Source: Dasypus novemcinctus
Taxonomy: Eukaryota > Chordata > Mammalia > Cingulata > Dasypodidae
Direction of reading: 5' to 3'
Assembly: GCF_030445035.2 (NCBI RefSeq)
Contig: NC_080702.1
Span: forward strand, 24,005,652 to 24,069,651
Length of the DNA stretch: 64,000 nt
Part shown: positions 19,268-60,294 of the stretch, piece by piece
Layout: each line of letters opens with the position of its first letter
How positions within the stretch are numbered: position 1 is the stretch's first letter
Notes under the pieces: generated by a model
Database searches by the model: none
The model's input: only the letters and a program-made list of their open reading frames with translations
What the model was told of the DNA's origin: nothing
Made by a program: the position numbers and the translations under genes

Positions 19268-19288
19268 CATTCTTTTTTATTACATCCT
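19268..19288 (-). CDS. Heptad exon (U1), 21 nt, closest to the 3' end
   Basis: Minus-strand exon. Acceptor: CTCTTTATTCAG; donor: GTGAGTGC. In phase 1 (G from the preceding exon plus AG) it reads E-D-V-I-K-K-N. No stop in that frame; the other two phases carry stops or create TGA at the join. It is followed by the 27-nt exon across a ~16-kb intron that includes the L1 block. Confidence 0.65.
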
Positions 19289-19523
19289 CTGAATAAAGAG
19301 AAATAAAAGATAAAAACAAAATTATGTTAAAAAATGTCACTGTAAGTTTCCTGCCAATAATTTAGACCAGATAATATATATTTTTATAAAAACAAGAAAA
19401 TGAGCTATAAAAACCTCTTTCAAATTAACGATTATCAATATAATTTCACATACACACTAAGCAATGGCCAATTTCATGATGAATTCTAAAAAAATACTCC
19501 TGCTTATAATATGAACGTAACAG

Positions 19524-19976
19524 TGTAAGGGACCCAGGTCCCCTAAGTCCTCAGCACATAGGCAGCTGCATGACCTAAACATAAGATAATGTTTAATAAC
19601 ACTCCCCAGAAGGGAAAGAATGAAGAGATGATACCACAAACTATAATCTTCCCAAAGCCGTTAATGTTGTTTGTAAACATCCTGCCTAGGAATGCTGTAA
19701 AACATTTCCACACACGGCATGTAATCTTTATGTGACCCTAATAGATACTCTGTTCTCCTATCCTATGGAATATCCTTGTTCTGAAACCACTTATAAATCA
19801 CCTCTCATTTTCTCATCTCTTTGTGCAGCACTAACTTCTTTCTTTGGCCTCCCACTGTCAAAGTCATTTCCCATTCTGCAAGTCATCAATAAAGCTTATG
19901 CCTGACTAAATGTCAGGTAAGTTCTTTGGTCTCATGTCCTCACCACTTTGTGCCCTTCTGGAATTGGGTTGTAGCA
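19524..19976 (+). mobile_element. LTR-like block (one per unit)
   Basis: About 453 bp that begins TGTAAGGG and ends TGTAGCA, two bases before TGGTGAGCC (19979), which looks like a retroviral primer-binding site (possibly tRNA-Arg type, imperfect). Inside are a TATA box (TTATAAATCA, 19791) and AATAAA (19888) about 95 bp apart, the spacing of U3-R promoters and poly(A) signals. Equivalents: 23097-23552, 27060-27553, 31320-31764, 34969-35418, 38625-39077, 42656-43106, 46360-46807, 50014-50457, 53653-54106, 56097-56533 and 60517-60962. It lies antisense to the gene. No gag, pol or env reading was seen, so it is an LTR or LTR-leader relic copied with the unit. Confidence 0.6.
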
Positions 19977-20261
19977 ACTGGTGAGCCATGGGCCGGGAGA
20001 CAGAATGACCATGGGCAGTTGTGGGCATGTGCTCAGGCAAGGGAGAATCCACAGGGGAAATCCTGGGTTGGCTTGTAATGTCCATGTGGGGAGGGGTGGC
20101 AACCCACTTGGGCAGGCAGGGAGTCGCCTACTTACTTGACAGTTGTGAAACTTCATATGAGTACATGGATGCTTCAGAAACCCTGATATGAGCAGCAGTT
20201 AACTAGCTAAGGGAAAAAATCTGGAGCAGTCTGCAAACCCACTGCTGACACCCTTCATGGT

Positions 20262-23200
20262 GTATCACATTAGTAGTTGTAGAGTGTGCAATGGGCAGTT
20301 CTACAGTGTCATTTCAGAACCGAAAAAAAAGTGAGGGGATGCTTCTTCTTCCCCATGTATTTAGAAAACCAAATGTTATGTGCACCATGGTTTCAGTCTC
20401 CATGCCCTGGTCAGTTTTGTTTTGGGTGGACTGTGAAATCTGAAGGTCAAAATATTTTTGGTTCAGTAACATTGGTCTGTGGAGAGTGGACCAAGTAAAA
20501 ATGATTCTAAAAGGTAGTGTAAATTTAGTTCATAACCATGTCCTGGACACAGGCTAAATTGTGTTATTTATTTTCTCTAAAGAATTGTCTTCCTTCCTTA
20601 AAGGGAATTATGAGGTAAATAGAAAATACTAAATTAAAACTTAGCACATTTCTTTGAGAGTTCAGCTGATTAAAAATATAAAATTAGCAGAAAATAGCGA
20701 AAATAGATCTGCAACTAACATAAAAAAATCCTTTCATAGCTCTTCATGTACAAGTGAATGATTTTTGGTTTCATGACAAAGAATATTTTATGATTTTTTA
20801 GAACCATGCTGTATCTAGGTCAATATAACTACAAAAAACATGTGGAGTAGAATAATTAATTCTGATGATAAATTATATTTACTACATGTTAATTTAAATT
20901 TCCAATTTATAAAATCACACAAAGACCTGACTGAGGGAAAACTATATCATTAGAGTTGATTCATTTTATTTTCATGGTGTCCTGAAATTTGCCTCAACCA
21001 TCTTCTCTTTTCCAGGTTCAATAACTAAAACCATAAGAGCTATTATTACTACTACTAATACCACCACTATAAATAACCCAATATGTGTCAATATTTTTAC
21101 ATATATGTACTTTTTAAAACTGAGTAAAAGATAATGTCATTAGTACCATTATTATATAAATAAAAAAAAAGCCTCAGGAGTTTAAAAATCTTTTGCAAGC
21201 TCATGAGGCTTGTAAGCAATAGAGCTGGAATTCAAACCCAGACAACTGACTCTAGAAACTACACTTCTAAAAAATTGATCTAATAATCACTTATTTTTCT
21301 CTGCATTGAGATAAACCAAAATGTACGAAGGAATGATTGAGTGAATGAGTAAATCATTGAAGGGATGAACAAATAAATAATATAAATAAATAGATAGATA
21401 GATAGATAAATAAATAAATAAATAATAAAATCTTAGAACAGTGTCAGGATTTGAGGAGATCCAGATATCAATGAGCAGATGGAAGGAATTACCATGTCTG
21501 CAGATAAAACCCTTCCCACTTTTGGGGATGGGAGCTACCCATCATCATCATTTTGTTGGTTGCCTAGGGCAAGCTCCAAGAATTAGAGCATAGGATTGTT
21601 CACCTCTACCAACTATGCCACACTGATTTAAGAGGTCACCAATAAGTGTAACAGTTTGTGTGTGTAAGGGACAGGGGTTATATGGGATTTCCCTATATTT
21701 TTGTGTATTTTTTAATATAAAAATAAAATTTCTCTAAAATTAAAGTTAAATAAATAAATGAGGAGGTGTTACATGGGAGTTCATTCTTCACTGGAAAAAT
21801 TTCATTAAATAGACTAAGGGTTTTGCATAGTAAGTAAAGAATAAAAACAATTTGTGAGTTTGAAGAACAAATTTTGAATATTAAATACATTAATATGAAT
21901 TGAATTTTCAGACCTATTTATTTATATGTGTATATCCCAAGAGGGTTCCATTTAAATTTTCTCTCTGCAAACTTTTAACTGTAATCTTCTAATCCCTTCT
22001 TTACACTCAATATGTATAACATTTTAAAAAATAAATCTATTCATGATTCTCATTTGCCTGCAATGTTCAAAGCTTTTAGTATGCCCAAAGAAATGTATCA
22101 TTTAACTGGTGTTTGCCTAAGTATGTTGTAGTCTTGAATGGATTTTCTGCACCTGAATCCCCTGGTCAAAATATGTCAACCTCGATAGAATCATGGGTTT
22201 GCACAATCCAGAGTGCCGTTTGCTCTCTGCTCTCTGCACTGCACTTGCTGGCTCTCATTGACTTACCTATTCCATTATTTAACACTGATCTCAACTCCAT
22301 TAGCACTTCTTCAGGAAAGCTTTGACCTCATATGTAGACCAAATCCTTTTAATATATATTCTTATTGCACCAAGCTCCTTGTTGATGGCACTCATTACAA
22401 TACTAATTTGGCATTTATTCTGTACATGTAATTGAACATCTATTTCATAATTAAAACCTTAATGTAATTTTGAATCCAATCTCTTTTTTTCTTATTCCAT
22501 TCTTGTTTTTTAAGCACCAACCACATGTTTCTACATGCACAAGAAATCATTGAACTTATCTGAATGAGGCAGATGAAAGAAATCAGAGTCCCAGTCCTCA
22601 TACTGCACAAGCTGGCACGCCTTAACCTTCATTTAAGGCTAACAACTATGTCCATGCTGAAAAACTTACATTTGAAATTTTACAAGTAGACAAAAGGTAT
22701 TTTAGTTACCTCTCAAAACTACTTTAGAACATTAATAAGCATTACATTACCTGTGAGTTTTGATTTTGCTAAATTTAAAGCTCAATTATGATATATCTTA
22801 TTGCATTTTGAAGGTTCAATTACCAAGATAAATAAAATTAACACTCACCATTCTTTTGCTTTATTTTCTCTGAATAAAGAGAAATAAAAAATCAAAGCAA
22901 AATTATGTTAGGAAGTGTCCCCATATACTACCTGCTCATAATCCATATCAGGTGTTTTTATAAAAACAAGAAAATAAGCTATAAATACCTCTTTAAAATT
23001 AAAGGTTGTCAATAAAATTTCACATACATAGTAAGCAACGGCCAATTTCATGATGAATTGTAAGAAAAGCTCCTGCTCACAATATGAATATAATAGTGTG
23101 GGTAACCAAGGTCCCTGTAAGTCCTCAACACACTGGTGCCTGCATGACCTACACATTAGTTAAAGGTTGATAACACTACCCAGAATAGAAAGAATGAATA

Positions 23201-23842
23201 GATGGTATCAGAAACTATAGTATTCCCCAAGCTGTTAGTGTCCTTTCTAAACATCCTTCCTAGAAGTAGAATAAATATCTCCATAGCCCAGGTGTAAGTT
23301 TCTTGTGACACTAACAGGAACTCTGTTCTCCTACCGTATGGAATATCCTTGTTCTTAAAGCACTTATAAATCACTTCACATTTTCTCATCTTTTTTTTAG
23401 GGCACTACTACACTTATTCTTTGGTCTGCCACTGTCAAGGATTCTTCCCTGTCCACAAGTCCCAATAAAGCCTAAACCTGACTAAATTCCAGGTGTGTTC
23501 TTTGGTCTCATGGTCTCACCATCTTATTCCCTTCAGGAATTACATTTTAACAAATGGTGAGCCAGGAATAAAGGGACAGAATAACAATGGACAGTGTGGG
23601 CATGTGCTCAGGCAAAGGAGAATCCATAGGGGAAATCCTAGGTTGGCTTGTAATGTCCATGTGGGGAAGGAAGGCTGACTTCTTGGCAGCTGGGGGTCAC
23701 TGAGAGAAAATGGCTTGAGAGTTGTGGATCTCCATGTGAGTATGGGGATGCCCCCAAACCCCTGATGGCAGTAATAATTAACTAAGATAGGAAAAACATT
23801 CTGGAAGCAACTCTGCAAACCCACTACTGATACCCTTTCTGG
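20262..23842 (+). repeat. Tandem unit U2
   Basis: 3.58 kb with no large insertion, so a good reference copy. MIR about 21040-21280, (GAAT)n and (GATA)n about 21320-21425, L1-type 3' end to about 21760, heptad exon 22849-22869, LTR-like block 23097-23552. Confidence 0.88.
22849..22869 (-). CDS. Heptad exon (U2), 21 nt
   Basis: Acceptor CTCTTTATTCAG, donor GTGAGTGT on the minus strand. Phase-1 reading E-K-I-K-Q-K-N, open. Strongly charged, as expected for a surface-exposed coiled-coil heptad. Confidence 0.65.
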
Positions 23843-25545
23843 TTTATCACATGTGAGGAGTGGTATTGTGCGCAATGGGGCAGTTCTCCAGTGTTACTTC
23901 AGAGACAATAAGGGGAGGCTTCCCCTTCCCCATGTACTGGGAAGACCAGATGGTACGTGCACTTTGGTATCTGTCTCCATGCCCTGGTCAGTTTTGTTTC
24001 ACATGGAGTGTGGACTTTGAAGGTCAAAATATTTTTGTTCCATTAACAGTGGTGTGTGAAGAATGCACCAAGGAAAAATGATTCAAAAGAGTAGTGTAAA
24101 TTTAGTTCATAACCATGTCTTGGACATAGGCTGAATTGTGTTATTTCTTTTCTCTATGGAATTGTCTTCCTTAAAGGGAATTACCAGGTAAATTTAAAAA
24201 TGAAATTAAAACCTAACACATTCTTTGAGAGTTCAGCTGATTAAAAAAGTTAATGAACATTAGCTGATAATATTGAAAATATTACTGTATCTAATAACAA
24301 AAAAATCTTTTTAAATCTCTACATATCTAAGTGAATGATGTTTGGTGCTATTACAGTCAACATTTTATGATTAAGACCAGGCTGTGTCTAGGTCAATGCA
24401 ACTACAAAAAATATGGGGAGTAGAATAATTCACATGGATGATAACTTTTATTTCCTACATGATAATTTAAATTGTGCAGATTATAAGTTCACAGAAAGCC
24501 CTGAATGAAAACTAAATAGTTGAGTTGCTCCATTTCATTTTCATGTGTCCTGAAATTTGCCTCAAACCCATATTTACATTTCCAGGCTCAATAATTAAAA
24601 CCATGAAAGCAATTATTTCTACTACTAGTATCACTACTGTTGATACCAATATGTGCCAAGGTTCTTAGATATATGAACTTTTTTATATTTAGTATAAAGC
24701 TATGTCAAAATTACCATTATTATAGTCCTTTTGAAAAATGTATGCCTTAGGATGTTAAACTTCTCATGCAAAATCATGAAGCTTCTAAGTAATATTTAAA
24801 CACAGATCATCTGACTCTGAAGCCCAATCTTCTACAAAATTAATCTAATAACCACTTATTTTTCTAAACTAAAATGAATGAAGGAATGAATGAGTAAATG
24901 AATGAATGGATGAATAAACACATAATCAATCAAACCATCTTAAAAGGAAACAGAGGCATAGAATGAGAAAGGACCCATATACCACATAGCGGATGGAAGG
25001 AATTATCCTCTCTGCAGTTACAAAAACTACCCATGTTTTGTGATGGGAGCTGTCCATCATCAGCATTTTGTTTGTTGTCTAAGGCAAATTCAGAAATCAG
25101 AGTAGGAGTTGTTACCTCTACCAAACATAACACACTAATCTGGGATGTCACCAATATGGGTAACTATGTGTGGGTATAAGGGAGGGGAATTATATGGGAA
25201 TTCCCTATGCTTTCTGTGTAATTTTTCTAAATATAAATCTGAAGTTTCTCTAAAATATAGTTTAAAAATTAACTAAAAATTATTAAAAACATGGAAAAGT
25301 GTAACATGGGAGTGCTTTCTTCACTGGAAAATTTTTCATTAAATAGATAACCAATCAAGGAATTTTTATAATGACTAAAGAATAAAAACAATTTGTGAAT
25401 TTAAAGAACAAATATTGAATATTAAATAAGCTAATAGGAATTGATTTTTTGGACCTCTTTATTTATATGAGTGTATCTCCCAAGGGGAATCCATTTAACT
25501 TTTCTCTCTGCAACCTTTTAACTGTGATCATCTAATCCATTCTTT

Positions 25546-25939
25546 TTTTAAAAGATTTATTTATTTCTTCCCCCTCCCTCCATTGCCTGCTCTCTGTGTC
25601 CATTCACAGTGTGTTCTTCTGTGTCTGTTTGTATTCTCATTAGGAATTTCTGGTAACTGATCCTGGGAACTTCCAGAGTAGGAGAGAGGTGATCATTGTC
25701 TTGTGCCACTTCAGTTCCCTAGTCTGTTGCATCTCTTATTGTCATTCCTCTGTCTCTTATTGTTGCATCATCTTGCTGCATCAGCTGTCTGTGTGGGCCA
25801 GCACTCCTGTGTGGAGCACTCTTTGTGGGCCAGTTCACCACACTGGCCAGCTTGCCTTCACCAGGAGGCCCTGGGTATAAAACCCTTGACCTCCTATATA
25901 GTTGATGGGAGCCCAATTGCTTGAGCCACATACATTTCT
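25546..25939 (-). mobile_element. DAS-type SINE, minus orientation, old copy
   Basis: About 394 bp with a T-rich left end (its A-rich tail) and imperfect 14-bp TSDs starting CTAAT (25532-25545 and 25940-25953). Shares 'ctctgtgtccattc', 'cttattgttgcatcatctt' and 'catcagctgtctgtgtg' with the SINE at 42091-42506. The tRNA-like head at the right end is decayed. Present only in U3. Confidence 0.75.
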
Positions 25940-26812
25940 CTAATGCACTCTTTAACTCAATAAAAATGACATTATAAATATAAATCTATTCATGATGCTC
26001 TTTTGTCTGAAGTGTTCAGGACCCTTAGTGTGCCCAAAGAAAGGTTGTATTTTGTGGTTTTTATCTACACACCTTCGAATCTTGACTATGTTTCTGCACC
26101 AGAATCCCCTGGTCAATCAATATGTGTCAACCCTGATAGAATCATGTGTTTGCTCAGCCCAGAGTGTAGTGTGCTCTCTGCTCCCTGCGTTGCACATGCT
26201 GGGCTCTCATTGACCTATCTATTCCATTCTTTACCGCTGATCTCAACTCTATTAGCCTTTCTTCAGGAAATCTATGACCTCATGTGTACCCCAAATGCCT
26301 CTAGTATATATTCTTATTGCACCAAGTTCCCTCTTCATTGAACTCATTTGAATATTAATTTGACATTTATTCTGTATATGTAACTGTACATTTATCCCAT
26401 AATAGAAAACTCAATTCAACTTACAATCCATTCTCTTTCTTTTTTTATTTTTCCGTTATTGTTTTTTAAGGACAAATCACATGTTAATTCATTACTATAT
26501 GCATAAAAAATCACTGAAATTATCTGAGTGAGACTGAAAAGAACTCAGAGACCCAGAATCACATAGCACAAACTGGTACATCTTAACCTCCATTTACTGT
26601 ATCAATTATCTCATGATGAGTAACTTACACTTAGAATTTAAAATGTGGACAAAAGATATGTTAGTTGACTCTCAGCAATATTTTAGAACATCAATATGCA
26701 TTTAATTACCTGAGTTTTGATTTTGCTACAATAATTTCAAAACAAAATGCTGGGATATTATTGGATTTTAAAGGTTCAATTACTGTTGAAGTCAAAAATA
26801 GATCTTACTCAC

Positions 26813-26833
26813 CATTTATTTTCATTATTTTCT
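26813..26833 (-). CDS. Heptad exon (U3), 21 nt
   Basis: Acceptor CTCTTTATTCAG, donor GTGAGTAA. Phase-1 reading E-K-I-M-K-I-N, open, with hydrophobic residues at the third, fourth and sixth places. Confidence 0.63.
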
Positions 26834-29441
26834 CTGAATAAAGAGAAAAAAAAAGATAAAAACAAAATCATGTTAGAAAGTGTCCCCATATGCTACCTGC
26901 TGATAATCTTGTCCAGATGTTATATTTTTATAAAAATAAGAAAATGAGCTTAAATATCCCTTTTAAAAAATTGTCAATATCATTCCATACATAGTAAGCA
27001 ATGGCCAATTTCATGCTGAATTGTAAGAAAAATTCATGCTTACTATATGAATGCAAGAGTGTGAGTTCCCCAGGTCCCTCTATAACCTCAGCACATAGGT
27101 GCCAGCATGAACTAGACATAAGTTAAAGGTTAATAATCCTTCCAAGAAAGTATGATAAAGTATGAGTATATTTTATAATGGTATATCATTCCATGAATGC
27201 ATAGATGGTAGATGAAGCATAAATAAAGCTGTTAGTGTCCTTTGTAAACATCATTCCTAGGAGAAGAATAAAAACATCTCCAAACCCATGTGTAAACTTC
27301 ATGTGACCCTAAACAGGAACTCTGTTCTTCCTCTGCTATGGAATGTCCTTGTGTTAAAACCATTTTTGAATCACCTCTCATTTTTTTCACTTCTTTGTGG
27401 AGCACTATCTTCACTTATACCTTGACTTGCCACTACCAAAGTTTCTTCCTTGTCTGCCAGTCTCAATAAAGCTTATGCCTGGTTAACTGTCAGGTGTGTT
27501 TTTTGGTCCCATGGACTCACAACCTTGTGACTTTCAGAAGTTGAGTTGTAACAACTGGTGAGCCTTAAGCCAAGAGAGAGGAGGACTACTGGCTGTTATG
27601 GATATTTGCTCAAGCAAAGGAGAATCCATAGGGGAAGTCCTCATTTGACTTGTAATGTCCATGTGAGGAGGGGTGGCTGCCCTCATGGGCAGGTGAGGAC
27701 CACTGAGAGAATATGGAGTCACCTACTTGCTTGATAGTTGTGAAACTCCACATGAGTACAGGAATGTCCCCAAAACCCTAGTGGGAGTAGCAGTTAAATA
27801 TGATAGGGAAAACAATCTGGAAGCTAGTCTGAAAATCCCTTTTTGGTATAACACATTTTAGGAGTAGTAGTGTGCACAATGGGGCATTTCTCTGGTTTCA
27901 TTTGATAGCCAATAAAGAGAGGCTTCCCCTTCCGCATATATTGGAAACACCAAATGGTGATGTGCAGTTTGTTTTCTGTCTCCATGCCCTGACCAATTTT
28001 ATTTAGAATTGGAATGGGGGCTTTGAAGGGCAAAATATTTTTGTTCCATTAAGATTGGTATGTGGAGTCTGGCCAAGTAAACCTGACTCATTAGGGTAAA
28101 TATTTGTTCCTTAAGCAATTCCTGGAAAGAAGCCTGATTTTGTTATTAATTTTCTCTATGGAATTGTCTTCCTTAAGTGAATTGTGAGGAATACTAAATT
28201 AAAACTTAGCACATTTTTTGAGAGTACAGCTGATTAAAAATAAATGAAAATTAGCAGATAATAGCCAAAATAGAACTGTAAATAATACCAAAAATTCCTC
28301 TCATAGCTCTAGTTGAACAAGTTCCTGATTTTTGCTGTTATGGAAATCAAATTTAAGATTAGTTAGGGTCCAGGCTCTTTCCAGGAAAATAGAACTACAA
28401 AAATCTTGTGTATTAGAATAATTCACTCTGATGATAAATTATATTTCCTACATAATAAGTCAAATTATCTTATTTATAAATTAACAGAAAGAACTGAAAT
28501 AAAACTAAATAAGTGAGTTGCTCTATTTTGTTTCCATAGTGTCCTGAATATTGTCATAAAATCACCTTGTCTTTGCCAGGTGCAATAACTAAAATCATGA
28601 AACCTATTATTAATACTACTACTACCACTATAATTAATAACCAACATATGTCATGATTTTTAGATATATGGACTTTTTAATACCAATTATAACACTATGT
28701 TATAAGTATCAATATTATATATTTTTAATTAAAATAAACATGCCTTAGGAGATTAAAAATCTTTTGCAAAATCATGACACTTCAAAGTAATATGCCTGGA
28801 ATTGAAATCCAGACAATCTGACTTTCGACATACTCTTCCAAAATAATTAATTTAATAATCACTTACTTCTCTCTGCCTTGAAAAAAAAAACAAAGTAAGT
28901 GAGGGAATGAATGAGTTTATGCATGAATGAATGGACGGATGAATAAATGAAAGAAGGGGTGAATAAATTCATGAAAGAAGGAAGGGATGGATGAATGAAT
29001 AAATAATTACTACATAAATAAACCTTAAAAGAAAACAGAGAGTACCAGGATGAGAGGGGACCCAGATACCAAAGAGCAAATGGAAGGAATTATCCTGTCT
29101 GCATCTACAAGCACTCTCTGTTGGTGGAAGGGCACTGTTCATATCGATCATTTTGTTGCTTGTCTAATGCAAGATCAAAGAACTGGACAGTAGGAATTAT
29201 CGCATGTATCAAATATATCACAGTAATTTAGGAATTCACTAATACATATTACAGTCTGTAGGTGTAAAGGAGATGACTTTATGGGAATTCCCAATATATT
29301 TTGTGTATATTTTCTCAAATATAAATCTAAAATTTCCCTCAAAATGAAGTTTAAATATTAAATAAATAATTAAATAAATGAAGAAATGTTACATGGAAGT
29401 TCTTTCTTCACTGTAAACATTTTCATTTAATAGAAAACCAA

Positions 29442-29859
29442 ATGATCCTAGCAATGGAAGAAATTTTATTGTTGATGTGGAGACAGTGGTCATGGGAGTA
29501 GCTGAGGGCAGAGAGAGGGATGAAGAGGTGTGATACAGGGGCATTTCCGGGACTTGGAGATGTCCTGAATGGTATTTTATGGACAGATGCAGGACATTAT
29601 ATATCCCGCCATGACCCACTGAAAGGACAAGGGGAGAATATAAATTACAACATAAACTATAATCCATGCTGGTGTAGCAGGGCTCCAAACATTTTCATCA
29701 AATGCAATGAAGGTGCCACAATAATAAAAGAGTTTGTTGTTGTGGGAGGAATAGGGAGGGGTGGGTAGTGTCATATATTGGAGTCTCTTATATTTAATGT
29801 AACATTTTGTGAGATCTGTTTATTGTTTAAAAAAGACACAATAATTTTTTTAAAAAAAA
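29442..29859 (+). mobile_element. 5'-truncated retroposon (right end of the 16.9-18.5 kb family)
   Basis: About 418 bp. The flanks repeat ATAGAAAACCAA / ATAGACAACCGA (TSD with two changes), and the right end has an A-rich tail. It matches 18040-18440 word for word in many places (gatgtggagacagtggtcatg, gacagatgcaggacatta, acccactgaaagga). Absent from other units apart from a fragment in U11. Confidence 0.75.
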
Positions 29860-31069: not shown

Positions 31070-31090
31070 CATTCTTTTTTACTCTTTCCT
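31070..31090 (-). CDS. Heptad exon (U4), 21 nt
   Basis: Acceptor TTCTTTATTCAG, donor GTGAGTGA. Phase-1 reading E-E-R-V-K-K-N, open. Confidence 0.63.
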
Positions 31091-41996: not shown

Positions 41997-42090
41997 CTAT
42001 GTAAAGATAAATAAAAGGTAAAAAAAATGTGTTAGAATGTGTCTCCATACACGACCTTCAGATAGTCTAGATCACATGTTTTATATATAT

Positions 42091-47110: not shown

Positions 47111-50100
47111 GTATCCTATTTTAGGTGTAGTAGTGTGTGAAATGGGGCAGTTCACCAGGGTCATTTGTGATTCTAAAAAGGGAGGATTCCCTTCCACACA
47201 TATTGGCAAAAAAAAAAAAAAAAAAAAAAAAAGAAAAGTTATGTGCACTTTGGTTTCTATTTCCATTACCTCATCAATATTCTTTAGAGTTGGAGTGTGG
47301 GCATTGAAGGGCAAGATCTTTTTTTTCTAGTAATATTACTGTGTGGATCCTGAACAAGTAAAACTGATTCTTCAGGGTAGTGTATTTAACCTTAACCTTG
47401 TCCTGGACAGGAGCTCAAATGTCTTATTAATTTTCTCTATGGAATTGTTTTCCTTAAAATGAATTATAAAGTTACTATATAATACTAAATTAAAACTTAG
47501 CAAATTTTTGCCAGTTCAGTTGATTAAAAAATTAAATGAAATGTAGCAGATAAGAGTGAAAAGAGTATTATAAATATATCAAAAATTCCTTTCATAACTT
47601 TACTTGAAAAATTTCACAATTTTTGTTGTTATGGAAATCAACATTTTATGATTAGGTAGTGTCCACTCTGTGTCTAAACCAAAATAAATACCAAAAAAAA
47701 GTGCAGTGGAATAATTCACTGTGATGATGAATTTTATTCCATACATGACAATTTAAATTGTCCAATTTACAGATTAACAGAAAGAATAGAGGGAAAACTA
47801 AATAGGTGAGTTGTTCTGTTTTGATTTTATAGTGCTGTGAATAATACCTTAAATCAATCTTGTCCTTGACAGATACAATAATTAAATCCATGAAAGCTAT
47901 TAATTCTAGTACTAAAACTTGTTAATAATACAATACTGTCAAGGTTTTCAGATATGTGAACTCTTTAATACATATAACAGTATGTTATAAATATTATGAT
48001 TATATTATTTTTGAATAAATAAACATGCCTTAGGAAACTAAAAAATATTTTGCAAAATCATGAAGCTTCTAAGTAATATAGCTGGAATATATACTCAGTG
48101 CATCTGTTTTTAGAACCTCTCCTTCTAAAAAATTAATTTAATAATCTTTTGCTAGTCTCTGCTTTGAAACAAAACAATGTAAATGACAGAATGAATGAGT
48201 AAATGAATGAAAGGCTGAATGAATGAATCAACAAATAAATGAATCAATGGATGAAGGAGGGCATGAATGAATGAATCAATCAATATTTACTACATAAATA
48301 AATCTTAAAAGTATACAGCACTATGATGAAAGGTAATGCAGATACCACCGAGCAAATGGAAGGAATTTTCCGGTCCGAATCTACAAACAGTCTCTGTTCT
48401 GGGTAACGAGCATTGTGCTGCATCATTATTTTGTGGGTTGTCTAAGGTTAGCTCAAAGAACTGGAGAGTAGGAATTGTCACATGTACCAAACATACCACA
48501 CTAATTCAGGAGTTCACTAAAACATAAGTGTAAGGGAGGTGTTTCTATGGGAATTCCAAATATATTCTGTGTATATTCTCTTAAATATCAATAGAAAATT
48601 TCCCTAAAAATAATGCTTAAAAATTAAAAAATTATTAAATGAAGTAGTGTTACATGGGATCTGTTTCTTAACTGGAAAATTTTTCATTAAATAGACAACC
48701 AAGTAAGGGATTTGCATAATGCCTAAAGAATGAAAACAATCTGTGACTTCACAGAGCAAATATTGAATATTAAATAAGGCATTATGAATTGACTTTTTGG
48801 ACCCATTTGTATACATATAAATGAGTGAATCTCCCAGGTGGATTGCATTTTACTTTTCTCTCTGTAAACATTACACTCTAATCATCTAATTAATTATTTA
48901 CACTCAATAAAAATGACATTTTAAAATTTAAATCTATTCATGATGCTCTTTTTGTCTTCAATTGTCAAAACTCTAAGAAAGCCAAAAGGAATGCTATATT
49001 TTCTGGGTTTTGCCTACATACCTTATAGTTTTGACTGTTTTCCACACCAGAAGCCCCTGGTCATTTTGTTCCAACCGTCATAGAATCATGTATTTGGACA
49101 ACCCAGAGTGTAGTGTGTTCTCTGCTCTCTGCCTTGCACATGAAGAGTTCTCATTGGCATACCTATTCCATTCATTAATGCTGATCTTAACTTCATTACC
49201 ATTTCTTAAGGAAATCTATGACCTCATACATAGTCCAAATCTCCCTAGCTATATTCTCATGCATGAAGTTGCTTCTTCAAGGAAATCATTAGAATATTAA
49301 TTTTGCATTTATTCTATATATGCAATTGTACATCTCTACTATAATAGAAACTTCAAGGCATTGGGGATCCTTTCTCTTTTTTTTCCTTTTTCCAGTAATG
49401 TTTCTCAAGAACCAAGAACATATTAGAGTGGATTTTTACATGCACAAGGAATCACTGAACTTGAATATACGAGGCAGATAAACAAACTCAGAGTCCCAGT
49501 CCGCATATAGCTCAAATTGGCACATCTTAATCTATATTTAACCACAACACCTTTCTCTCTGATGAGAAATTTACACTTACAATTTTACAAACAGGTAAAG
49601 AAAGTTTAATTGACACTCACTATTTTTTTACAGCATCAAAAAACATCTCATTAACTCTGAATTTTGATTTTCCTTCAGTAATTTTTAAGCTCAATTTGTA
49701 GATATTATTGGATTTCGAAAGCTCAAATGCTGTCTAAAAGAAAAATATATATCACTCACCATTTTCTAGAATTAATTTCTCTGCATAAAGATAAAAAAAG
49801 GTAAAAACAAAAATATGTTAGAATGTGTCTCCAGGCACTACTTGCAGATTATCTAGACCAGATATTTTATATTTTTATTAAAATAAAAAAGTCAGCCCTA
49901 AATAGCTCTTTAAAGCATAACAGTTGTCAATACTATCTCACATATATACTAAGCAATGGCCCATTCCTTGATGAATTGCAAGAAAATTTTCTGCTTGCAT
50001 TATCAATGTAATAGTGAGGTTCCCAAGGTCCCCTTAGTTCCTCAGCACTTAGTGCCATCAGGACATAGACATAGGTTAAATTTAATAATCCTCCCCAGAA

Positions 50101-50760
50101 GGGTAAGAATGCATAGATGATATAAAAAAGCATAATCTTCCCTTTTCTATTAAAGACCTTCATAAACCTCCTTTCTAGGAGCTCATTAAAAACATCTCCA
50201 CACCAGTTTCTAAGATTCTCATGTCCCTATAAGGAACTCTGTTCTTCTCCCTATGGAATGTCCTTGTTCTGAAACCACTTATAGATCACCTGAGATTCTC
50301 CATTCTCTTTGTGGAGCATTATTCTTTGGCCTGCCACTGTCAAAGATTCTTTCCTGTCCACAAGTCCAATTAAATCTTATGCCTGACAAAAAGCCCGGTG
50401 TGTTCTTCAATCTCATGGCCTTACATTCTCATGCCCTTCAAGAACTGGATTGCAAAACGGGTGAGGAATGAGCCAAGAGACAACATGTCTACTGGTCTTC
50501 TGGGCATGTGCTCAGGCAAAGGAGAATCCTTAGGGGAAATCCACAGTTGTCTTGGAATGTCTATGGGGGAGGGGTGGCTGCCTCTTGGGCTGGTGAGGAC
50601 CACTGAGAGAATATGGAGTCAGGTACTTGATTGATTTTTGTCAACATCCACCTGAATTTGGGGGTTACCCCGAAACCCTTATGTGAGTAGCAGTTAAAAA
50701 AAGTTAAGGAAAACAATCTGGAAGCATTGCTGCAAACCCACTGCTGAATCCTTTTTGGGT
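47111..50760 (+). repeat. Tandem unit U9
   Basis: 3.65 kb without insertions; a poly(A) run of over 20 at about 47210-47232. Heptad exon 49760-49780, LTR-like block 50014-50457. Confidence 0.88.
49760..49780 (-). CDS. Heptad exon (U9), 21 nt
   Basis: Acceptor ATCTTTATGCAG, donor GTGAGTGA. Phase-1 reading E-K-L-I-L-E-N, open, with a typical hydrophobic core pattern. Confidence 0.65.
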
Positions 50761-53700
50761 ATATCCAATATTATGTGTAGTAGTCTGTGCAATGGGGCAG
50801 TTCTCCAGGGTCATTTGTGAGTCTAGAGAGGGAGGTTTCCATTCCCCACATATTGGGAAATAAAAAAAACAACAACAATATATGTGCACTTTGGTTTCTG
50901 TCTGCTTTGAATTGGAGTGTGGACTTTGAAGGAGAATATGGTTTTTTTTCTCCTAATAACATTAATTTGTTGATCCTGAACATGTAAAATTGATTCATCA
51001 CAGTAGTGTATATTTAATCCTTAACCATATCCTGGACAGAAGCTGATATGTCTTACTACTGTACTCTATGGAATTGTTTTTCTTAAAATGAATTATAAGG
51101 TTACTACATAATATTAAATTAAAACTTAGCAAATTTTTATCAGCTCAGTTGATTAAAAAATTTAATGAAATGTAGTAGATAAGAGTGAAAAGAGAATTTT
51201 AAATATATCGAAAATTTCTTTCATAATTCTACTTGAAAATTTTCATCATTTTTTGTTATTATGGAAATCAACATTTTATGATTAGTGTCCAGGGTGTATA
51301 TAGACCAATATAAATACCACATGTACAGGAGAATAATCACTGTGAGAATGAATTATATTCTATACATGATAATTTAAATGGTCTATTTTATAAATTCACA
51401 GAAAGAACAGAGGACAACTAAATAGTTGAGTGGTTCGGTTTTGTGTTCATAGTGTCCTGAATAATGCTTTCAAACAATCTTGTCCTTGCCAGGTTCAATA
51501 ACTAAATGCATGAAAGCTACTAATTCTACTACTACTAACACTACTACTATTGATAATACAATAGATGTCAACATTTTTAGATATGTGAACTTTTTATTAC
51601 TTATAACATTATGTTATAAATATGATTATATTATTTTTTAAATAAATAAACATGCCTTAGGAAATTAAAAAATCATTTGCAAAATCATGAAGCTTCTAAG
51701 TAATATAGCTGGAATATGATCCCAGTGCATCTGACTTTAGAACCTCTCCTTCTAAATTAATTAAATTAATTAATCTAATAATCTCCTGCTAGTCTCTGCT
51801 TTGAAACAAAACAAATGACAGAATGAATGAGTGAATGAATGAGTCAACAGATCAATGAATCAATGTATGAAGGAAGGGGTGAATGAATCAATTAATAAAT
51901 AATTATGATGTAAATAAATCTTAAAAGTAACCAGAGAGCACCATGATGAAAGGGGATGCAGATACCACTGAGCAAATGGAAGGAATTTTCCTTTCTGCAT
52001 CTCTGTTTTGGATGATGGGCATTGTGCGCATCATTATTTTGTGGGTTTTCTATGGCAAGCTCAAAGAATGGGAGAGTAGGAATTGTCACATGTACCAAAT
52101 ATACCATGCTAATTCAGGAGTTCACTAAAACATGTAAGAGTATGTAGGCATAAGGGAGGTGGTTCTATGGGAATTCCAAATATATTCTGTGTATATACTC
52201 TTAAATACCAATAGAAAATTTCCCTAAAAATAAAGTTTAAAAATTAAACAAATAATTAAATGAATTAAATGAAGAAGTGTTACATGGGAGTTGTTTCTAA
52301 ACTGGAAAATTTTTCATTAAATAGACAACCGAATAAGGTATTTGCCTAATGACTAAAGAATAAAAACAATTTGTGACTTTGAAAACAAATATTGAATATT
52401 AAATAAGATATTATGAATTGACTTTTTGGATCCATTTATTTATATAAATGAATGACTCTCCCAGGTGGATTGCATTTTACTTTTCTCTCTGTAAATAATT
52501 CACTGTAATCATGTATTTAATTCTTTACACTCAATAACAATGACATTTTAAAATTTAAATCTATTCATGATGTACTTTTTGTCTGCAATTTTCAAAATTC
52601 TTAGTGTGCCAAAAGCAATGCTATATTTTCTGGGTTTTGCCTACGTACTTTATGGTCTTGACTTTTTCTATACTAGGAGCCCCTGGTCAATATGTTTCAA
52701 CCATCTTAGAATCATGTATTTGGTCAACCCAGTGTGCAGTGTGCTCTCTGCTCCCTGCCTTGCACATGCGGAGCTCTAACTGACATACCTATTCCATTCA
52801 TTAATGCTGATCTCAACTCCATTAGCATTTCTTAAGGAAATCTATGACCTCATATACAGGCTAAATCTCCCTAGTGTATATTCTTATGCACCAAGTTCCT
52901 TCTTCAAGAAAATCATTAGAATATTAATTTAGCATTTATTCTACACATGCAATTGTACATCTATACCACAAAAGAAACCTCAATGCATTAGGGATCTTTT
53001 CTCTTTTTTTTTTTTTTTTCTTTTTCCAGTAATGTTTCTCAAGCACCAAGAACATATTAGAGAGTATATTTTTACATTCACAAGGAATCACTGAACTTGA
53101 AAAAAATGATGCAGATGTAAGGAATCAGAGTCCCAGTCCTCATATAGCTTAAACTGGCACATCTTAACCTACATTTAACCACAAAAACTCTCTCTCTGAG
53201 AAATTTACACTTACACTTTTACAAATATGCAAAGGTATTTTAATTGATACTAATACTATTATACAGCATCAATAAGCATTTCATTAGCTCTGAGTTTGAT
53301 TTTGTTTTCGTAATTTTTAAGCTCAATTTGTAGATTTTATTGGATTTTGAAGTTTCAAATACTGTCTAAAAGAAAAATAAATATCACTCACCATTGTTTG
53401 TCACGTATTTTTCTGCATAAAGATAAATAAAGGGTGAAAACAAAAATATGTTAGAATGTGACTCCATATACTTCATGCAGATAATCTAGACCAGATGTTA
53501 TATATTTTATTAAAATAAGAAAATCAACTATAAATAGCTTTTTAAAACATAATAGTTGTGAATTTGAATACCATCTCACACACATACTACGCAATGGCCA
53601 ATTCCATATTGAATTGCAAGAAAATTTTCTGCTTACATTTTCAATGTAATAGTGAGATTCCTAAGGTTCCCTTAGTTTCTCAGCACTTAGGTGTCATCAT

Positions 53701-54410
53701 GACCTAGACATAAGTTAAATTTAACAAACCTCCCCAGAAGGATAAGAATGCATAGATGATATCAAAAAGCATAATCTTTCCATTTCTGTTAAAGACATTT
53801 TTAAACCTCTTTCCTAGGAGCACAGTAAAAACATCTCCACACTAGTTTCTAAGCCTCATGTTTCCCTATAAGGAATTCTGTTCTTCTCCCTACGGAATGT
53901 CCTTGTTCTGAAACTACTCATAGATTGCCTCACATTTTCCCATCTCTTAGTTGAGCACAACCTTACTTATTCTTTTGCCTGCCACTGTCAAATATTCTTC
54001 CCTGTCCACATGCTCAATTAAATCTTATGTCTGACAAAAATCCACGTGTGTTCTTCAGTCTCATGGCCTCGCCATTTCATGCCCTTAAAGAATTGGGTTG
54101 TAAAAATGGGAGAGTTATGGGCCAAGAGACAGCATGTCTGCTCTTCTTGTGGGGAAGTGCTCAGGCAAAGGGGAATCCTTCGGTGAAATCCACGGTTGAC
54201 TTGTAATGTCCATTTGGGCAAGGGTGGCGGCCCTCTTGGGTAGGTGGAAACAACTGAGAGAATATGAAGTCACATACTCAATTGTTTTTTGTCAAACTCC
54301 GCATGAATATGAGGATACCCCAGTAATCCTTATGTGAGTAGCATTTACATAAGATAGGGAAAACAATAGGAAAGCAAGTCTGCAAACCCTCTGCTGACTC
54401 CATTTTTGGT
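50761..54410 (+). repeat. Tandem unit U10
   Basis: 3.65 kb without insertions. Heptad exon 53392-53412, LTR-like block 53653-54106. A long T run at about 53005-53019 is the expanded form of a T tract present in all units. Confidence 0.88.
53392..53412 (-). CDS. Heptad exon (U10), 21 nt
   Basis: Acceptor ATCTTTATGCAG, donor GTGAGTGA. Starts AA rather than AG, so the junction codon is GAA, still Glu. Phase-1 reading E-K-Y-V-T-N-N, open. Confidence 0.62.
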
Positions 54411-54857
54411 GTATCACATGTATGCATGGGGTAATTTTCCAGTATTATTTCAGAGTCAATAAAGGAATGCTTACCCTTACCCATGTAGTGGGAAATCACA
54501 ATTATATATGCACTTTAGTTTTTGTCTTCATGCCATAGGCAGTTTAATTTATGGGTGGAGTGTGGTCTTTAAAGTTTAAAATATTTTTCTTCCAGTTACT
54601 TTTTTGTGTGGAGGCAGAACCAGGTAACACTTATTCATCAGGGTTGTAAATTTAGCTTATAATAGTGTCCTGGACAAAGCCTTAATTTGTGTTATTATTT
54701 TTCTCTATGGAATTGTCTTTCTCAATGTGAAATACAAAGTGAACATAAAATACTAAATTAAAACTTCATACTTTTCTTTGATAGTTCAGATGATAAAAAA
54801 TTAATTGATATTAGCAGATAAATGAAAGTCAAAATGTAAATAATATCAACAATTCCT

Positions 54858-55272
54858 GGCAGCAGACTTGGCCCAGTGCTTAGGGCGTCCGTCTACCACA
54901 TGGGAGGTCTGCGGTTCAAACCCCGGGCCTCCTTGACCCGTGTGGAGCTGGCCCACTTGCAGTGCTGATGCACACAAGGAGTGCTGTGCCATGCAGGGGT
55001 GTCTGCCACATAGGGGAGCCCCACGCTCAAGTAGTGCGCCCCGTAAGGAGAGTCGCCCAGCGTGAAAGAAAGTGCAGCCTGCCCAGGAATGGCGCCGCAC
55101 ACATAGAGAGCTGACACAACAAGATGACGCAACAAAAAGAAACACAGATTCCCATGCCATTGACGACAACAGAAGCAGACAAAGAAGACGCAGCAAATAG
55201 ACACAGAAAACAGACAACCAGGTTGGGGGCGGGGTGAGAGAAATAAATAAATAAATAAATCTTTAAAAAAAA
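54858..55272 (+). mobile_element. DAS-type SINE, clean full-length copy
   Basis: 415 bp with a perfect 10-bp TSD, AACAATTCCT (54848-54857 and 55273-55282). The tRNA-like head reads GCAGACTTGGCCCAGTGCTT with the B-box GGTTCAAACCC, followed by the family body (gtgtggagctggcccac, aggggtgtctgcc) and an (AAAT)n/A tail. This is the armadillo-type tRNA-derived SINE and the main basis for the species call. Minus-strand frames up to 123 residues are shadows. Confidence 0.93.
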
Positions 55273-55460
55273 AACAATTCCTTTCACACCTCTACATGAA
55301 CAAGTTAATGATTTTTGGTATTATGACAACATTTAATTAGGAGCAGGCAATACCAACATCAATATAACTACAAAAACATATATAATAGAATAATTCATTC
55401 TGATAATGAATTATATTTCCTACATTAAAATTTAAGTTGTCCAATTTATAAATTCACATA

Positions 55461-55562
55461 AGATGTGGACACAGTGGCCACAGAGTACTGGGAGCAGGGA
55501 GTGGGAAGAAGAGTTGAGATATGGGGGCATTTTCAGATTTGGTGTTGTCCTGAACTTTTCAG
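55461..55562 (+). mobile_element. Retroposon fragment at the U11 deletion junction
   Basis: Matches the 5' part of the element at 29442-29859 (gatgtggacacagtggcc, gggggcattttcagattt, gttgtcctgaa), but has no tail and no TSD. It sits exactly at the point where about 1.6 kb of unit sequence is missing. Confidence 0.65.
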
Positions 55563-55848
55563 AATGAGGCAGATGAAAGAACTCAGAGTCCCAGTACTCA
55601 TATTGGACAAGCTCACACATCTTGACCTTCATTTAAGCCTAACAACTATTTCTATGTTAAGAAACTTACATTTACAACATTACAAGTAGACAAAAGATAT
55701 TTCTTGTCTCTCAAAGCTCTTTTAGAACATCAATAAGCAATTCATTTACTGTGAGTTTTGATTTTCTTATAATAATTTTAAAGCTCAATTACGGGATAAT
55801 ATTGGATTTTAAAGTTCAAATAGTGTGTCAGACAAAAACAAATATCAC

Positions 55849-55869
55849 CACTATTCTTTTCTAATGCCT
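55849..55869 (-). CDS. Heptad exon (U11), 21 nt, weakened donor
   Basis: Acceptor ATCTTTTTTCAG is good, but the donor is GTGATATT instead of GTGAGTGA, the only copy with a damaged donor. Phase-1 reading E-A-L-E-K-N-S, open. It ends in Ser, unlike all others. Possibly skipped; the frame would survive skipping because the exon is 21 nt with equal phases. Confidence 0.5.
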
Positions 55870-57757
55870 CTGAAAAAAGATAAATAATCAAAACAAATTT
55901 ATGTTAGAAAGTGTCCCCATATGCTACCTGCTGATATTCCAGAACAGTAATATATTTTAATAAAAAGAAGAAAATTACCAATAAATATATCTTTATGAAT
56001 AAAAGCTGTCAATATAATTTCACATACATATTAAGCAATGGCCAATTTCATGTTGAATTGTAGTAAAAATTCCTGCTTACATTTTGAATATATTAGTGTG
56101 AGTGACTCAGGTCCCCTAAGTTCTCAGCACATAGGTGCCTACATGACCTTAGATATAAGTTAAAGTTTAATAACCCTCCACAGAAGAGAAAAATGCACAG
56201 ACGATATAAGAGGTTAACGTCCTTTGTAAACATCCTTCCTAAGAGTGCTGTAAAAACACCTCCGACCCCATGTGTAAGCTTCACATGACCATAACAGGAA
56301 CACTTTTCTCCTATCCTATGGAGTGCTCTTGTTCTGAAACCACTTATAAACACCTGTGATTTTCTCATCTCCTTTTGTGCAGTGGTAACTTTGTTTATTC
56401 TTTGATTGGCCACTGTGAAAGATACTTCCCTGTCTACAAGTACCAATAAAGCTGCTGCCAGACTAAAGGCCAGGCATGTTCTTTGGTCCCATGGCCTAAA
56501 AATCTCATGCCCTTCAAGAATTGAGTTATAACAACTGTTGAGTCATGAGCCAGGAGACACATGTATACTGATCTTGTGGGCATGTTCTCAGGCAAAGGAA
56601 AATCTGTATGGGAAATCCACGATGGACTTGTAATGTCCGTGTGAGGAGTGGCTGCCCTCTTGGGCAGGTGGGGACCACTGAGAGAATATGAAATAAAAAA
56701 CTCAGTTGATTTTTGTTGAACTCCACATGAATACAGAGATATCCCCAAATCCCTAATGTGAATACTAGTTATATAAGATAGGGAAAACTATCTGGAAACA
56801 GTTTGCAAACGCCCTGCTGACTCCGTTTTTGGGGTATCACATTTTAGGAGTGGTAGTGTGTGCAAAGAGGTAGTACTCCATGGTCATTCCTGAGATAGGG
56901 AAGGCAGGCTTCCCCTTCCCTATGTTTTGGAAAAACTAAATGATAAGTGCACTCTGGCTTCTGTCTCCATTTATTTGTCAATTTTAATTAGTGATGGATT
57001 GTGGGTTTTGAAGGGCAGTATATATTTTTTCCCAGTATCATTGGTAGGTGGACTCTGACCAAGCAAAACTGATTCATCAAGGTAGTGCATTTTTATTCCA
57101 TAACTGTGTCCTGGACAGAAACTGAAATGTATTATTAATTTTTTACCATGAAATCATCTTCCTTAAAGTAAATTATGAGGTTAATATATATTACTAAATT
57201 AAAACTTTGCACATTTTTGAGAGTTGAGCTTATTATAAAATAAATAAAAATTAGAGTGTAATAGTGAATATAGAACTGTAAATATATCAAAAATTTCTTT
57301 CATAGCTCTACTTGAACAAGTTCATGATTTTGGGTTTTAGGAAATCCACATTTTATGGTTAGTTATGGTCGAGGTTATGTCTAAGTTAATATAACTGCAA
57401 AAAAACAAAACAAAATATGTGCAGTGGAATAATTCACTGTAATGATATATTACATTTCCTACATCATAATTTAATGTCTAATTTATAAATTCACAGAAAG
57501 AACTGAAGGAAAATTAAATAGTTGAGTTCCTAAATATTGTTTTCATGGTGTCCTGAATATTGCACTAAAATCATCCAGTCTTGGTCTGGTTCAATAACTA
57601 AAACCGTGAAAACTATTATTACAATTACTACTCCCTCTACTCTTAATAATCCAATATAGGTCCAAGATTTTTAGATATGTGAACTTTTTAATACTTATTA
57701 TAACCTTGTTATAAATATGATTTTTATAATATTTTAAAATAAAATAACAGGCCTTAG

Positions 57758-58514
57758 TACAACTCCATCACAGTCGGGAAGAACTCTGAAGTAGGGCCCA
57801 CTGACATGGCACTGAACTCCAGAGTGATCTGCCATAACCATAGAACCTGTGTGTCTCTGTAGCCCTCAGGAGAACCAGTACCTGAGGCTGAATCTACTTT
57901 GGCTATCTCTGGGGTCCTGCTGAGGTGTGCATAAGCACAACCCCGCTAATGACCACCTGAATCTTTTTGAAGACTCTTAGCCATATAAACTAATTTGTTT
58001 TTGCCATTTCCCCTTTTTATTCAAGGTCCAAAAGCAGTTTTTAACACTTGATACTACATGTGGGCTGAGATATTCTGCTGGTCTGAGTTGACCCTCTTTT
58101 TCAAGGCCTCTTTCTAGCTGCATCATCAGTTAGTAGTTGGTAGTAATCCCTCAGTGCCAGGGAAGGTCATCCCCAGGAGTCATGTTCCAGGCTGGGGGGA
58201 AGGTAATGCATTTAGATGCTGAGTTTGGCTTAGAGAGTGGCCACATTTGAGCAACATGGAGGTTCTCAGGAGGTAATTCTTAGGCACCCGGCAGCTCAGC
58301 TATGTACAGCAGAATAAATAAAGATTTAGAGATGATTAGTTTTTCTTGTTATGTTTTATAATATTATTATAATTGGAATAATGAAAACACTTTAAAAATG
58401 ATTGAAGTGATGAATGAACAATTATGTTCTACACTTAAGACCATTAATTGTACACTTTGCATGGATGTGTGTTTTATTACTAGGTTGAATAAAAATGAAT
58501 TGTTGAAAAAAATT
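57758..58514. mobile_element. Retroposon with inverted 5' half (twin-priming type)
   Basis: 57758-58303 matches the middle of the 16.9-18.5 kb family on the minus strand (for example 'ttggcttagagagtggcc' and 'aagtgctcaaatatggcc' in reverse). From about 58304 it switches to plus-strand sequence ending 'ttgtacactttgcatgg ... gaataaaaatgaattgttg' and an A run. The flanks share CCTTAG (57752-57757, 58515-58520). Inverted 5' half plus direct 3' half with a tail is the known outcome of L1 twin priming. Confidence 0.65.
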
Positions 58515-60273
58515 CCTTAGGAGATTATAAAAATCTTTTGCAAAATCAAGAAGCTTCTAAGTAATATAGCTGGAATATAAACCGAGATCATCTGACTCTC
58601 GACCCTACCCTTATAAAAAATTAAAAATCACTTACTTTTCTCTGCCTTGGAAAAAACAAATTAAATGTGGGAGCAAATGAGTAACTGAAGGAAAGATGAA
58701 TGGATGAATGAGTGAATGAATGAATGATTTAAAGAATTAATAAATAATTATTGAATGAAGGTATGAATGGATGAATAAATAAATAATTATTACATAATCT
58801 TAAAAGGAAACAGAGAGCACCAGGATGAGAGGGTACCCAGATACCACGGAGCTAATGGAAGGAATTTTCTTGTCTGCATCTGGAAAATCTCTCTGTTTTG
58901 GGGGTGGGCACTGCTCATCATCAACATTTTGTTGGTTGTCCAATGCAAGCTCAAAGAACTGGACAGTAAAAGTTTTCACATGTACCAAATATACCACAAA
59001 AATAATTAAGGGTTCACTAATACGTGTAACAGTTTGTAGGTGTAAGGGATGTGGTGTTAAGGGAACTCCCAATATATTTTGTGTATATTTTCTTAAAAAT
59101 AAATTTAAAATTTCCTTAGAAATAAATTTTAAAATTTAAATAAATAATTAATAAATGAGGAAGGGATTGATGGGATCTTTCTTCACTGGAAAATTTTTCA
59201 TTAAATGTACATCCAACATACGGATTTGCATAATAACTAGAGTGTAAAAACAATGGTGACTTTGAACAGGAAATATTGAATATAATTTATTATTAATTGG
59301 TTTTTGGACCTTTTTATTCATATGCATGAGTGCATTCCCAACGGGATTCCGTTTAACTTTTGTCTCTGTAATCTTTTCACTGTAATCATATAATCAATTC
59401 TTTACACTCAATAAAAATGACATTTCAAAATGTAAATTGATTCATGATGCTCCCTTACCTCCAATCTTCAAAACTCTTAGCATGCCCAAAGTAACGTCCT
59501 ATTTTCTGAATTTTGCCTAAGTACCTTGTAGTCTTGACTGGATTTTCTGCACCAGAAGCCTCTGGTCAATATGTGCCAGCCCTCATAGAATCACGTTTTT
59601 GCTCATCCCACAGTGTAGTGTGCTCTCTGCTCCCTGCCCTGCACATGATGCTCTCTCATTGACTTTTCTATTTCATTCTTTACCACTGATATCAACTACA
59701 TGAGAATTACTTCAGGAAATCTATAACCTCCTGTATAGGCCAAATGACTCTAGTGTATATCTTTTTGTACCAAGTTCCTTCTTTATGGAAATCATTAGAA
59801 TAATAATTTGGGTTTTTTTCTCTTAATGCAATTGTGCACTTATACCACAGCAGAAATCTCAGTGCTTTGGGGATCTTTCTCTGTTGTTTTTTTTTTATTT
59901 TTCCAAAAATGTTTCTCAAGCACCAAAAACATATTAGAGAGTTTATTTCTACATGCACAAGGAATCACTAAACTTGAATAAATGAGGCAGATGAAAGAAA
60001 TCAGCGTCCCAGTAATCACATAGATCATTCTGACACATCTTAAAATATATTTAACCTGAACAATTATCTCTGTGTGGAGAAATTTACATTTACAATTTTA
60101 AAAAGAGGCAAAAGATATTTTAGCTGCAACACAACACTATTTTACAGCATTAATAAGCATGAAATGAATCCTGAGTTTTGATTTCACTTTAATAAATTTA
60201 AAACTCAATTTGCAGACATTATTGGGTTTTGCAGGTTCAAATACTCTCTAAAACAAAAATAAATATCACTCAC

Positions 60274-60294
60274 CATTCGTTTTTATTGTTTCCT
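60274..60294 (-). CDS. Heptad exon (U12), 21 nt, most 5' in the window
   Basis: Acceptor ATCTTTATTCAG, donor GTGAGTGA. Phase-1 reading E-E-T-I-K-T-N, open. At U2's spacing, the next heptad exon would lie at about 64.3 kb, just outside the window. Confidence 0.65.

Follow-up and report, generated by a model that had tools for sequence, protein, structure and literature searches.

A candidate butyrophilin-family gene of the armadillo with a tandem array of 21-nt heptad exons upstream of a decayed B30.2 exon

Introduction

The chicken BG genes belong to the butyrophilin (BTN) family and are linked to the major histocompatibility complex (PMC4046983, PMC8813856). Their cytoplasmic heptad tail is encoded by a long run of 21-nucleotide (nt) exons, in which the first codon is split, taking one base from the previous exon, and the final exon is a 3′ untranslated region rather than B30.2 (PMC5938342, PMC4046983). 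These tails reach 27-38 heptads (PMC5938342). In this work, we analysed a 64,000-nt stretch of the genome of the armadillo Dasypus novemcinctus (assembly GCF_030445035.2, contig NC_080702.1, positions 24,005,652 to 24,069,651; hereafter, the window), whose minus strand carries a 21-nt heptad exon in each of at least twelve ~3.6-kb tandem units and, downstream of them, a decayed B30.2 exon. The locus probably represents the 3′ part of a butyrophilin-family gene in which B30.2 was lost and a long heptad tail like that of BG was acquired.

Long heptad tails have so far been treated as separating chicken BG from the mammalian butyrophilins. In butyrophilins, heptad exons of 21 and 27 nt precede B30.2. 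The mammalian BTN1A1, BTN2A, and BTN3A genes place small heptad exons before a B30.2 exon of the same strand (PMC6790196, PMC5829056), and human BTN3A3 has four such small exons, numbered 5-8 (PMC5829056). Mammalian butyrophilins contain only a few heptads (PMC5938342), and most of them have the B30.2 domain, whereas the armadillo array contains at least 12 heptads. Squamate butyrophilins resemble the armadillo locus in having a variable number of heptad motifs behind the membrane segment, but their B30.2 is conserved, and the available part of the source mentions no exon array (PMC12841164). A 2018 study of the armadillo BTN3 loci described one contig with three small exons and a B30.2-like region, from which functional proteins are not expected; an array at these loci is not mentioned in the available part of that paper (PMC5829056). 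Among the titles and abstract openings listed from the open-access literature, in most cases the top 15-20 of a larger set, no mammalian heptad-exon array was found.

The array and its exons

Self-BLAST showed that ~3.6-kb repeat units run from 18.45 kb to the right edge of the window, in agreement with the tandem array of at least 12 units proposed in the initial annotation of this DNA. The units are 71-87% identical in unit-unit alignments of more than 600 bases, and the identity of the other units to one chosen reference unit is 69-93%. The right-most unit is cut by the window edge and its exon position lies just beyond 64000, so the array is still open on this side and twelve exon-bearing units are a lower bound.

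Each of the twelve units covering the exon position contains a 21-nt minus-strand segment between AG and GT. The donor reads GTGAGT in 11 of the 12, as had been annotated; in the remaining unit, at 55.8 kb, four bases have been lost and the donor reads GTGATA. By eye, this exon (E55; Table 1) is intact, with AG, 21 nt, GT, and an open frame, but the automatic projection of all units on one unit scored it as not intact because the four-base loss was placed at the donor. The closest pair is E34 and E38, for which the exons are identical and the surrounding 1.2 kb is 91.6% identical.

Table 1. Features of the window on the minus strand, with array exons in transcript order; the residue in brackets is encoded by the split first codon
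Feature	Coordinates	Strand	Description
Tandem array of ~3.6-kb units	18452..64000	-	Self-BLAST and projection on one unit; 12 units cover the exon position
Heptad exon E60, 21 nt	60274..60294	-	(E)ETIKTN
Heptad exon E55, 21 nt	55849..55869	-	(E)ALEKNS; donor weakened to GTGATA
Heptad exon E53, 21 nt	53392..53412	-	(E)KYVTNN
Heptad exon E49, 21 nt	49760..49780	-	(E)KLILEN
Heptad exon E46, 21 nt	46104..46124	-	(E)KLKKNN
Heptad exon E41, 21 nt	41976..41996	-	(E)TLKTRN
Heptad exon E38, 21 nt	38371..38391	-	(E)ELKTDN
Heptad exon E34, 21 nt	34713..34733	-	(E)ELKTDN; identical to E38
Heptad exon E31, 21 nt	31070..31090	-	(E)ERVKKN
Heptad exon E26, 21 nt	26813..26833	-	(E)KIMKIN
Heptad exon E22, 21 nt	22849..22869	-	(E)KIKQKN
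Heptad exon E19, 21 nt	19268..19288	-	(E)DVIKKN
Remnant of a further unit	5981..7880	-	Self-BLAST; exon-bearing part should sit at about 4545-5980
Heptad exon outside the array, 21 nt	3339..3359	-	(D)KFTEEL; phase 1 open
27-nt exon	3221..3247	-	(D)QGRVLKEE; phase 1 open
Possible further 27-nt exon, doubtful	3103..3129	-	AG/GTAAAT borders; absent from the strict scan
Decayed B30.2 (PRY-SPRY) exon	1255..1854	-	Homology in two frames; stops at 1623-1625 and 1582-1584

Reading frame and heptad peptide

All twelve unit exons are open in intron phase 1, with one base taken from the previous exon, and the frame stays open across every junction. Frame 0 is interrupted by a stop in each of the twelve exons; in the third frame, there is one internal stop, and a TGA arises at 10 of the 11 junctions. 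In transcript order, the joined array peptide reads EETIKTN EALEKNS EKYVTNN EKLILEN EKLKKNN ETLKTRN EELKTDN EELKTDN EERVKKN EKIMKIN EKIKQKN EDVIKKN, and is followed by DKFTEEL from the exon at 3339-3359 and DQGRVLKEE from the exon at 3221-3247. Codon 1 encodes Glu in 12/12 unit exons, codon 3 is hydrophobic in 10/12, and codon 7 encodes Asn in 11/12; codon 4 is hydrophobic in 6/12 and codon 7 in none. The observed concentration of hydrophobic residues in one column was matched by 0 of 10,000 peptide shuffles, which ignore common descent.

Asn at position a is known in parallel dimeric coiled coils, and the hydrophobic codon 3 and the Asn codon 7 appear, from the peptide, to be spaced like the d and a positions of a coiled coil. 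In chicken BG, the hydrophobic codons are the fourth and the last, that is, the seventh (PMC5938342), whereas the armadillo exons have them mainly at the third codon and in half of the cases at the fourth, with Asn at the seventh; the heptad register therefore differs. A search of a large protein database with the heptad query gave 56 candidates, one of them at E=7.3, and thus no useful relative.

Conservation of the exon borders

On the minus strand, the motif YAG-N21-GTRAGN following a tract with at least 70% pyrimidines is present 12 times, in 11 unit exons and in the exon at 3339-3359, and on the plus strand it is absent; in 60 order-2 Markov sequences its mean number was 0.18 and its maximum 1. 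Without the tract condition, 12 minus-strand and 3 plus-strand matches were found, and the Markov mean and maximum rose to 2.6 and 6. The unit copies share descent, and the count should therefore not be read as 12 independent events. When both strands were scanned strictly for micro-exons (15-45 nt, good acceptor and donor), the minus strand yielded 15 matches and the plus strand 1. Thirteen of the 15, each of them open in phase 1, are the exons at 3339-3359 and 3221-3247 together with 11 unit exons, E55 being excluded by the donor rule; the 27-nt exon of the initial annotation is thus recovered. The two remaining minus-strand matches of the strict scan, its only candidates for other exons within the unit, are closed in every phase.

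Neutral evolution of the exon was simulated along a tree of the flanks, from which columns -25 to +31 around the exon had been removed beforehand. The simulation started from the consensus exon at the midpoint root, assumed a transition bias of 3, and took its indel rate from counts in these flanks. All 12 exons were intact in 0 of 4000 runs (mean, 3.3 of 12), AG and GT were retained in all 12 in 7 runs, and GTGAG was retained in at least 11 exons in 6 runs. Within the 1.2 kb surrounding the exon, conservation peaks in 10-mers that cover the exon end and the donor, and the value for the 10-mer beginning at the donor is reached by 10 of 1211 windows; for this region, gap pairs were skipped, and E41 and E55 were cut at 42085 and 55550, respectively. 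The exon itself is among the least conserved 21-nt windows, with 43 of 1200 windows and 159 of 4000 simulations as low or lower in conservation. Collectively, the splice borders and frame of the exon look selected and its length kept, judging from the sequence, while its residues seem to have drifted.

Downstream exons and the decayed B30.2

The exon at 3339-3359 and the decay of the B30.2 exon both escaped the initial annotation. It had presented 1255-1854 as a B30.2 exon, which holds in that a real homologue lies downstream of the array on the same strand, but this homologue is not intact, being spread over two frames with stops. Pfam searches gave a PRY match (E=6.6e-10) in one open piece and a SPRY match (E=9.4e-11) in an X-marked read-through. 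Among the best 60 of 90 matches of the read-through to Protein Data Bank (PDB) sequences, TRIM58 was the best (E=2.4e-26), and BTN2A1 was matched at E=8.8e-24; with the B30.2 query, a large protein database returned 15 candidates, none at E≤0.001. Similarity of the remnant thus extends to the B30.2 of TRIM58/TRIM21 proteins, but we know of no TRIM gene with a run of 21-nt heptad exons before B30.2. The acceptor of the B30.2 exon was located by eye before 1854. The segment at 3103-3129 is doubtful as an exon because every frame, read by eye, contains a stop.

The twelve unit exons and the exons at 3339-3359 and 3221-3247 share phase 1 and precede a same-strand B30.2 homologue, as heptad exons precede B30.2 in butyrophilins. 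The proposal that a butyrophilin-like heptad exon was multiplied together with its introns is borne out by one exon per unit, the common phase, the heptad peptide, and the conserved donor, but a standard intact butyrophilin-like gene is not present because B30.2 is a broken remnant and cannot supply an intact domain. A stop in the last exon normally escapes nonsense-mediated decay, and the transcript would normally be spared; the locus may therefore hold either a B30.2-less gene with a heptad tail or a dead gene. BTN3A2 likewise has no B30.2 (PMC6790196).

Proposed model of the heptad tail

In the model that we favour, one cytoplasmic heptad exon of 21 nt in phase 1 would have been multiplied via tandem duplication of a ~3.6-kb intron-exon-intron unit. 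Every unit duplication would add one exon, that is, exactly one heptad, without disturbing the frame, and the tail could therefore grow or shrink stepwise. Successive 21-nt exons are presumably spliced together; splicing of all units would then give a tail of at least 12 array heptads, continued by the exons at 3339-3359 and 3221-3247. The terminal B30.2 exon has decayed and, if still spliced on in the heptad phase, would end the frame after 22 residues. The predicted product is a type I membrane protein of the butyrophilin family, a B30.2-less receptor of chicken BG-like design, whose cytoplasmic part would form a long two-stranded coil and whose immunoglobulin (Ig) and membrane exons would lie to the right of 64000. 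Within the window, no Ig domain was found by Pfam in 10 reading frames (8 minus and 2 plus, of 115 listed). The tail would presumably dimerise and act through length and coil, not through particular residues: since only borders and frame seem to be kept, length and coil-forming ability, and not a residue-specific binding site, would be its function.

Compared with chicken BG, the locus shares the run of 21-nt, presumably cytoplasmic exons, the split first codon, and, if its exons are joined, a heptad tail. The final exon of BG is untranslated, whereas the armadillo locus still holds a B30.2 remnant. The heptad count of BG is about 27-38; the window has 12 + 1 21-nt exons in an array open at its right edge. 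Each armadillo exon is embedded in a ~3.6-kb duplicated unit, unlike those of chicken BG, and the host is a mammal. The resemblance to chicken BG is taken here as convergence, and on this comparison the locus may be assigned to the butyrophilin family as a BG-like member by convergence, its family membership being incomplete.

Alternative explanations

Several results weigh against this model, and most of them bear on one of three alternatives. Two are more general: neither an upstream exon nor a transcript is visible inside the window, and the joined heptad peptide matched 12 Pfam families at E up to 1, all of them under the cut-offs and none of them butyrophilin.

The main alternative is that the gene is dead, the array having grown while a butyrophilin gene was active and the gene having died so recently that its exons still look intact without having a function now. 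We regard this as a serious alternative, although a rather unlikely one. It would readily account for the broken B30.2, which is also what a dead gene would look like, and for the weakened donor of E55. Inside the exon, pN is 0.33 and pS 0.35, giving a pN/pS of 0.95, so that no residue constraint is visible; a ratio near 1 would be expected of a dead gene. Positive selection on the residues is not claimed at this value. For other armadillo loci, those of BTN3, a published study found no expression and does not expect functional proteins (PMC5829056). On the other hand, the branches are long (root-to-tip distance, 0.20 substitutions per site on average in the midpoint-rooted flank tree), and along them 11 of the 12 exons have retained AG, GTGAGT, length, and frame; the death of the gene would therefore need to be much younger than most units. 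E34 and E38 also remain identical in spite of the divergence of the 1.2 kb around them.

It is improbable that the array is an incidental repeat, in which neutral 3.6-kb tandem duplication merely carried along a chance or cryptic AG-21-GT exon. Some components of the neutral simulation are not unusual when taken alone: the frame was open in all 12 exons in 641 of 4000 runs, and no indel occurred in 370 of 4000. Among flank windows covered by all 12 rows, 37/389 are indel-free and 22/389 share an open frame as well. The automatic rule scores the exon as intact in 11/12 rows rather than 12/12, and 24 of 3165 unit windows (those with at least 12 rows and an open frame in the consensus), the exon counted among them, are as intact as the exon, which makes this empirical control weaker than the simulation. 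Nor does the donor stand out when the full unit is considered, since other stretches are more conserved; its 12-mer is only 44th of 3635, in scores that omit the four bases lost by E55. These less extreme values of the flank windows, donor rank, and equally intact windows are the reason that neutral carry-over is kept as an alternative. Against it stands the combination of intact borders with so divergent an interior, which is peculiar to the exon. Its internal identity (0.675) is the lowest of the 24 equally intact windows, and apart from the exon, in two overlapping registers, none of the 24 is equally divergent inside. Conversely, 85 windows are at least as divergent as the exon; once the exon and the two registers next to it are set aside, the best of these windows reaches intactness in 77% of rows. 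Moreover, two exons that lie outside the array and precede the same-strand B30.2 homologue are open in this phase too, and the simulation left all exons intact in no run. Given the simulation, the divergent-window comparison, and the strict scan, chance or neutral carry-over was set aside as the whole explanation.

It is very improbable that these are real micro-exons of a different gene merely adjoining the B30.2 remnant. One candidate for such a gene, TSBP1, which has many exons and neighbours BTNL2, was set aside; its protein is not known to contain heptads of this kind. Read in the phase of the heptads, the B30.2 exon reaches its stop after 22 residues in a frame that differs from the PRY frame; because of this mismatch, the heptad exons and B30.2 are linked by position and strand only, which would suit a different gene. 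Against this, a 21-nt heptad exon and a 27-nt exon upstream of B30.2 form the layout of a butyrophilin. Small heptad exons are also placed before B30.2 in PMC6790196.

Evolutionary scope

A wider form of the favoured reading, a B30.2-less butyrophilin-family gene with a long heptad tail, can be put forward tentatively and with less than even confidence. In this form, a working gene of a placental mammal would have become BG-like independently, dropping B30.2 and lengthening its coil heptad-wise via 3.6-kb units over tens of millions of years; borders and frame would be selected and residues free, tail length would be the selected trait, and the Asn-rich core would set chain pairing. The placental substitution rate is near 2.2e-9 per year. 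As a rough estimate, the deepest units would be of the order of 90 million years old and the closest pair, E34/E38, about 20 million years old; if so, related species should share the older units.

If the favoured reading is true, a mammalian gene has reached the same tail as chicken BG by another route, which would constitute a natural replicate. Tail length, and not B30.2, could then be the selected output end of a receptor family, and tail function would become testable. The locus would also be a clean case of a protein segment growing by one unit per duplication with very large introns, and it could help in studying the recognition of 21-nt micro-exons across introns of 3.6 kb.

Other features of the window

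A thirteenth exon was sought in 4300-6100, at the remnant unit on the left, where BLAST similarity to 8 units ends at ~5981 and resumes at ~4540. The intervening ~1.45 kb, at about 4545-5980, has no unit similarity, and its length nearly equals that of the missing part of the remnant. A stretch of ~10.5 kb (7.9-18.4 kb) separates the two halves of one unit and contains an L1 element: a piece of the ORF1 RNA-binding domain (PF02994, E=3.8e-21) was found on the plus strand within 10227-10955, together with a plus-strand endonuclease piece (PF03372) at E=2.1e-4, below its cut-off.

The window contains no tRNA and no Rfam match at the gathering score. The same short repeat, perhaps a tRNA-derived short interspersed element, could be recognised by eye from shared peptide remnants at 42086-42507 (plus) and 54846-55291 (minus), and perhaps at 25644-25924 (plus). 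A short SINE motif occurred 3 times, against 1.27 expected, and was uninformative as to the species group. Neighbouring units share 300-nt stretches of 100% identity (33476-33775 and 37130-37429; 32254-32553 and 35911-36210), while their overall identity is ~93%, and recent gene conversion or uneven duplication is proposed for these stretches. Finally, a degenerate GAAT/ATGA tetranucleotide array, whose copies were compared by position, recurs at roughly unit spacing near 24873, 28905, 33131, 36787, 40428, 44568, 48189, 51821, 58676, 62325, and 62762.

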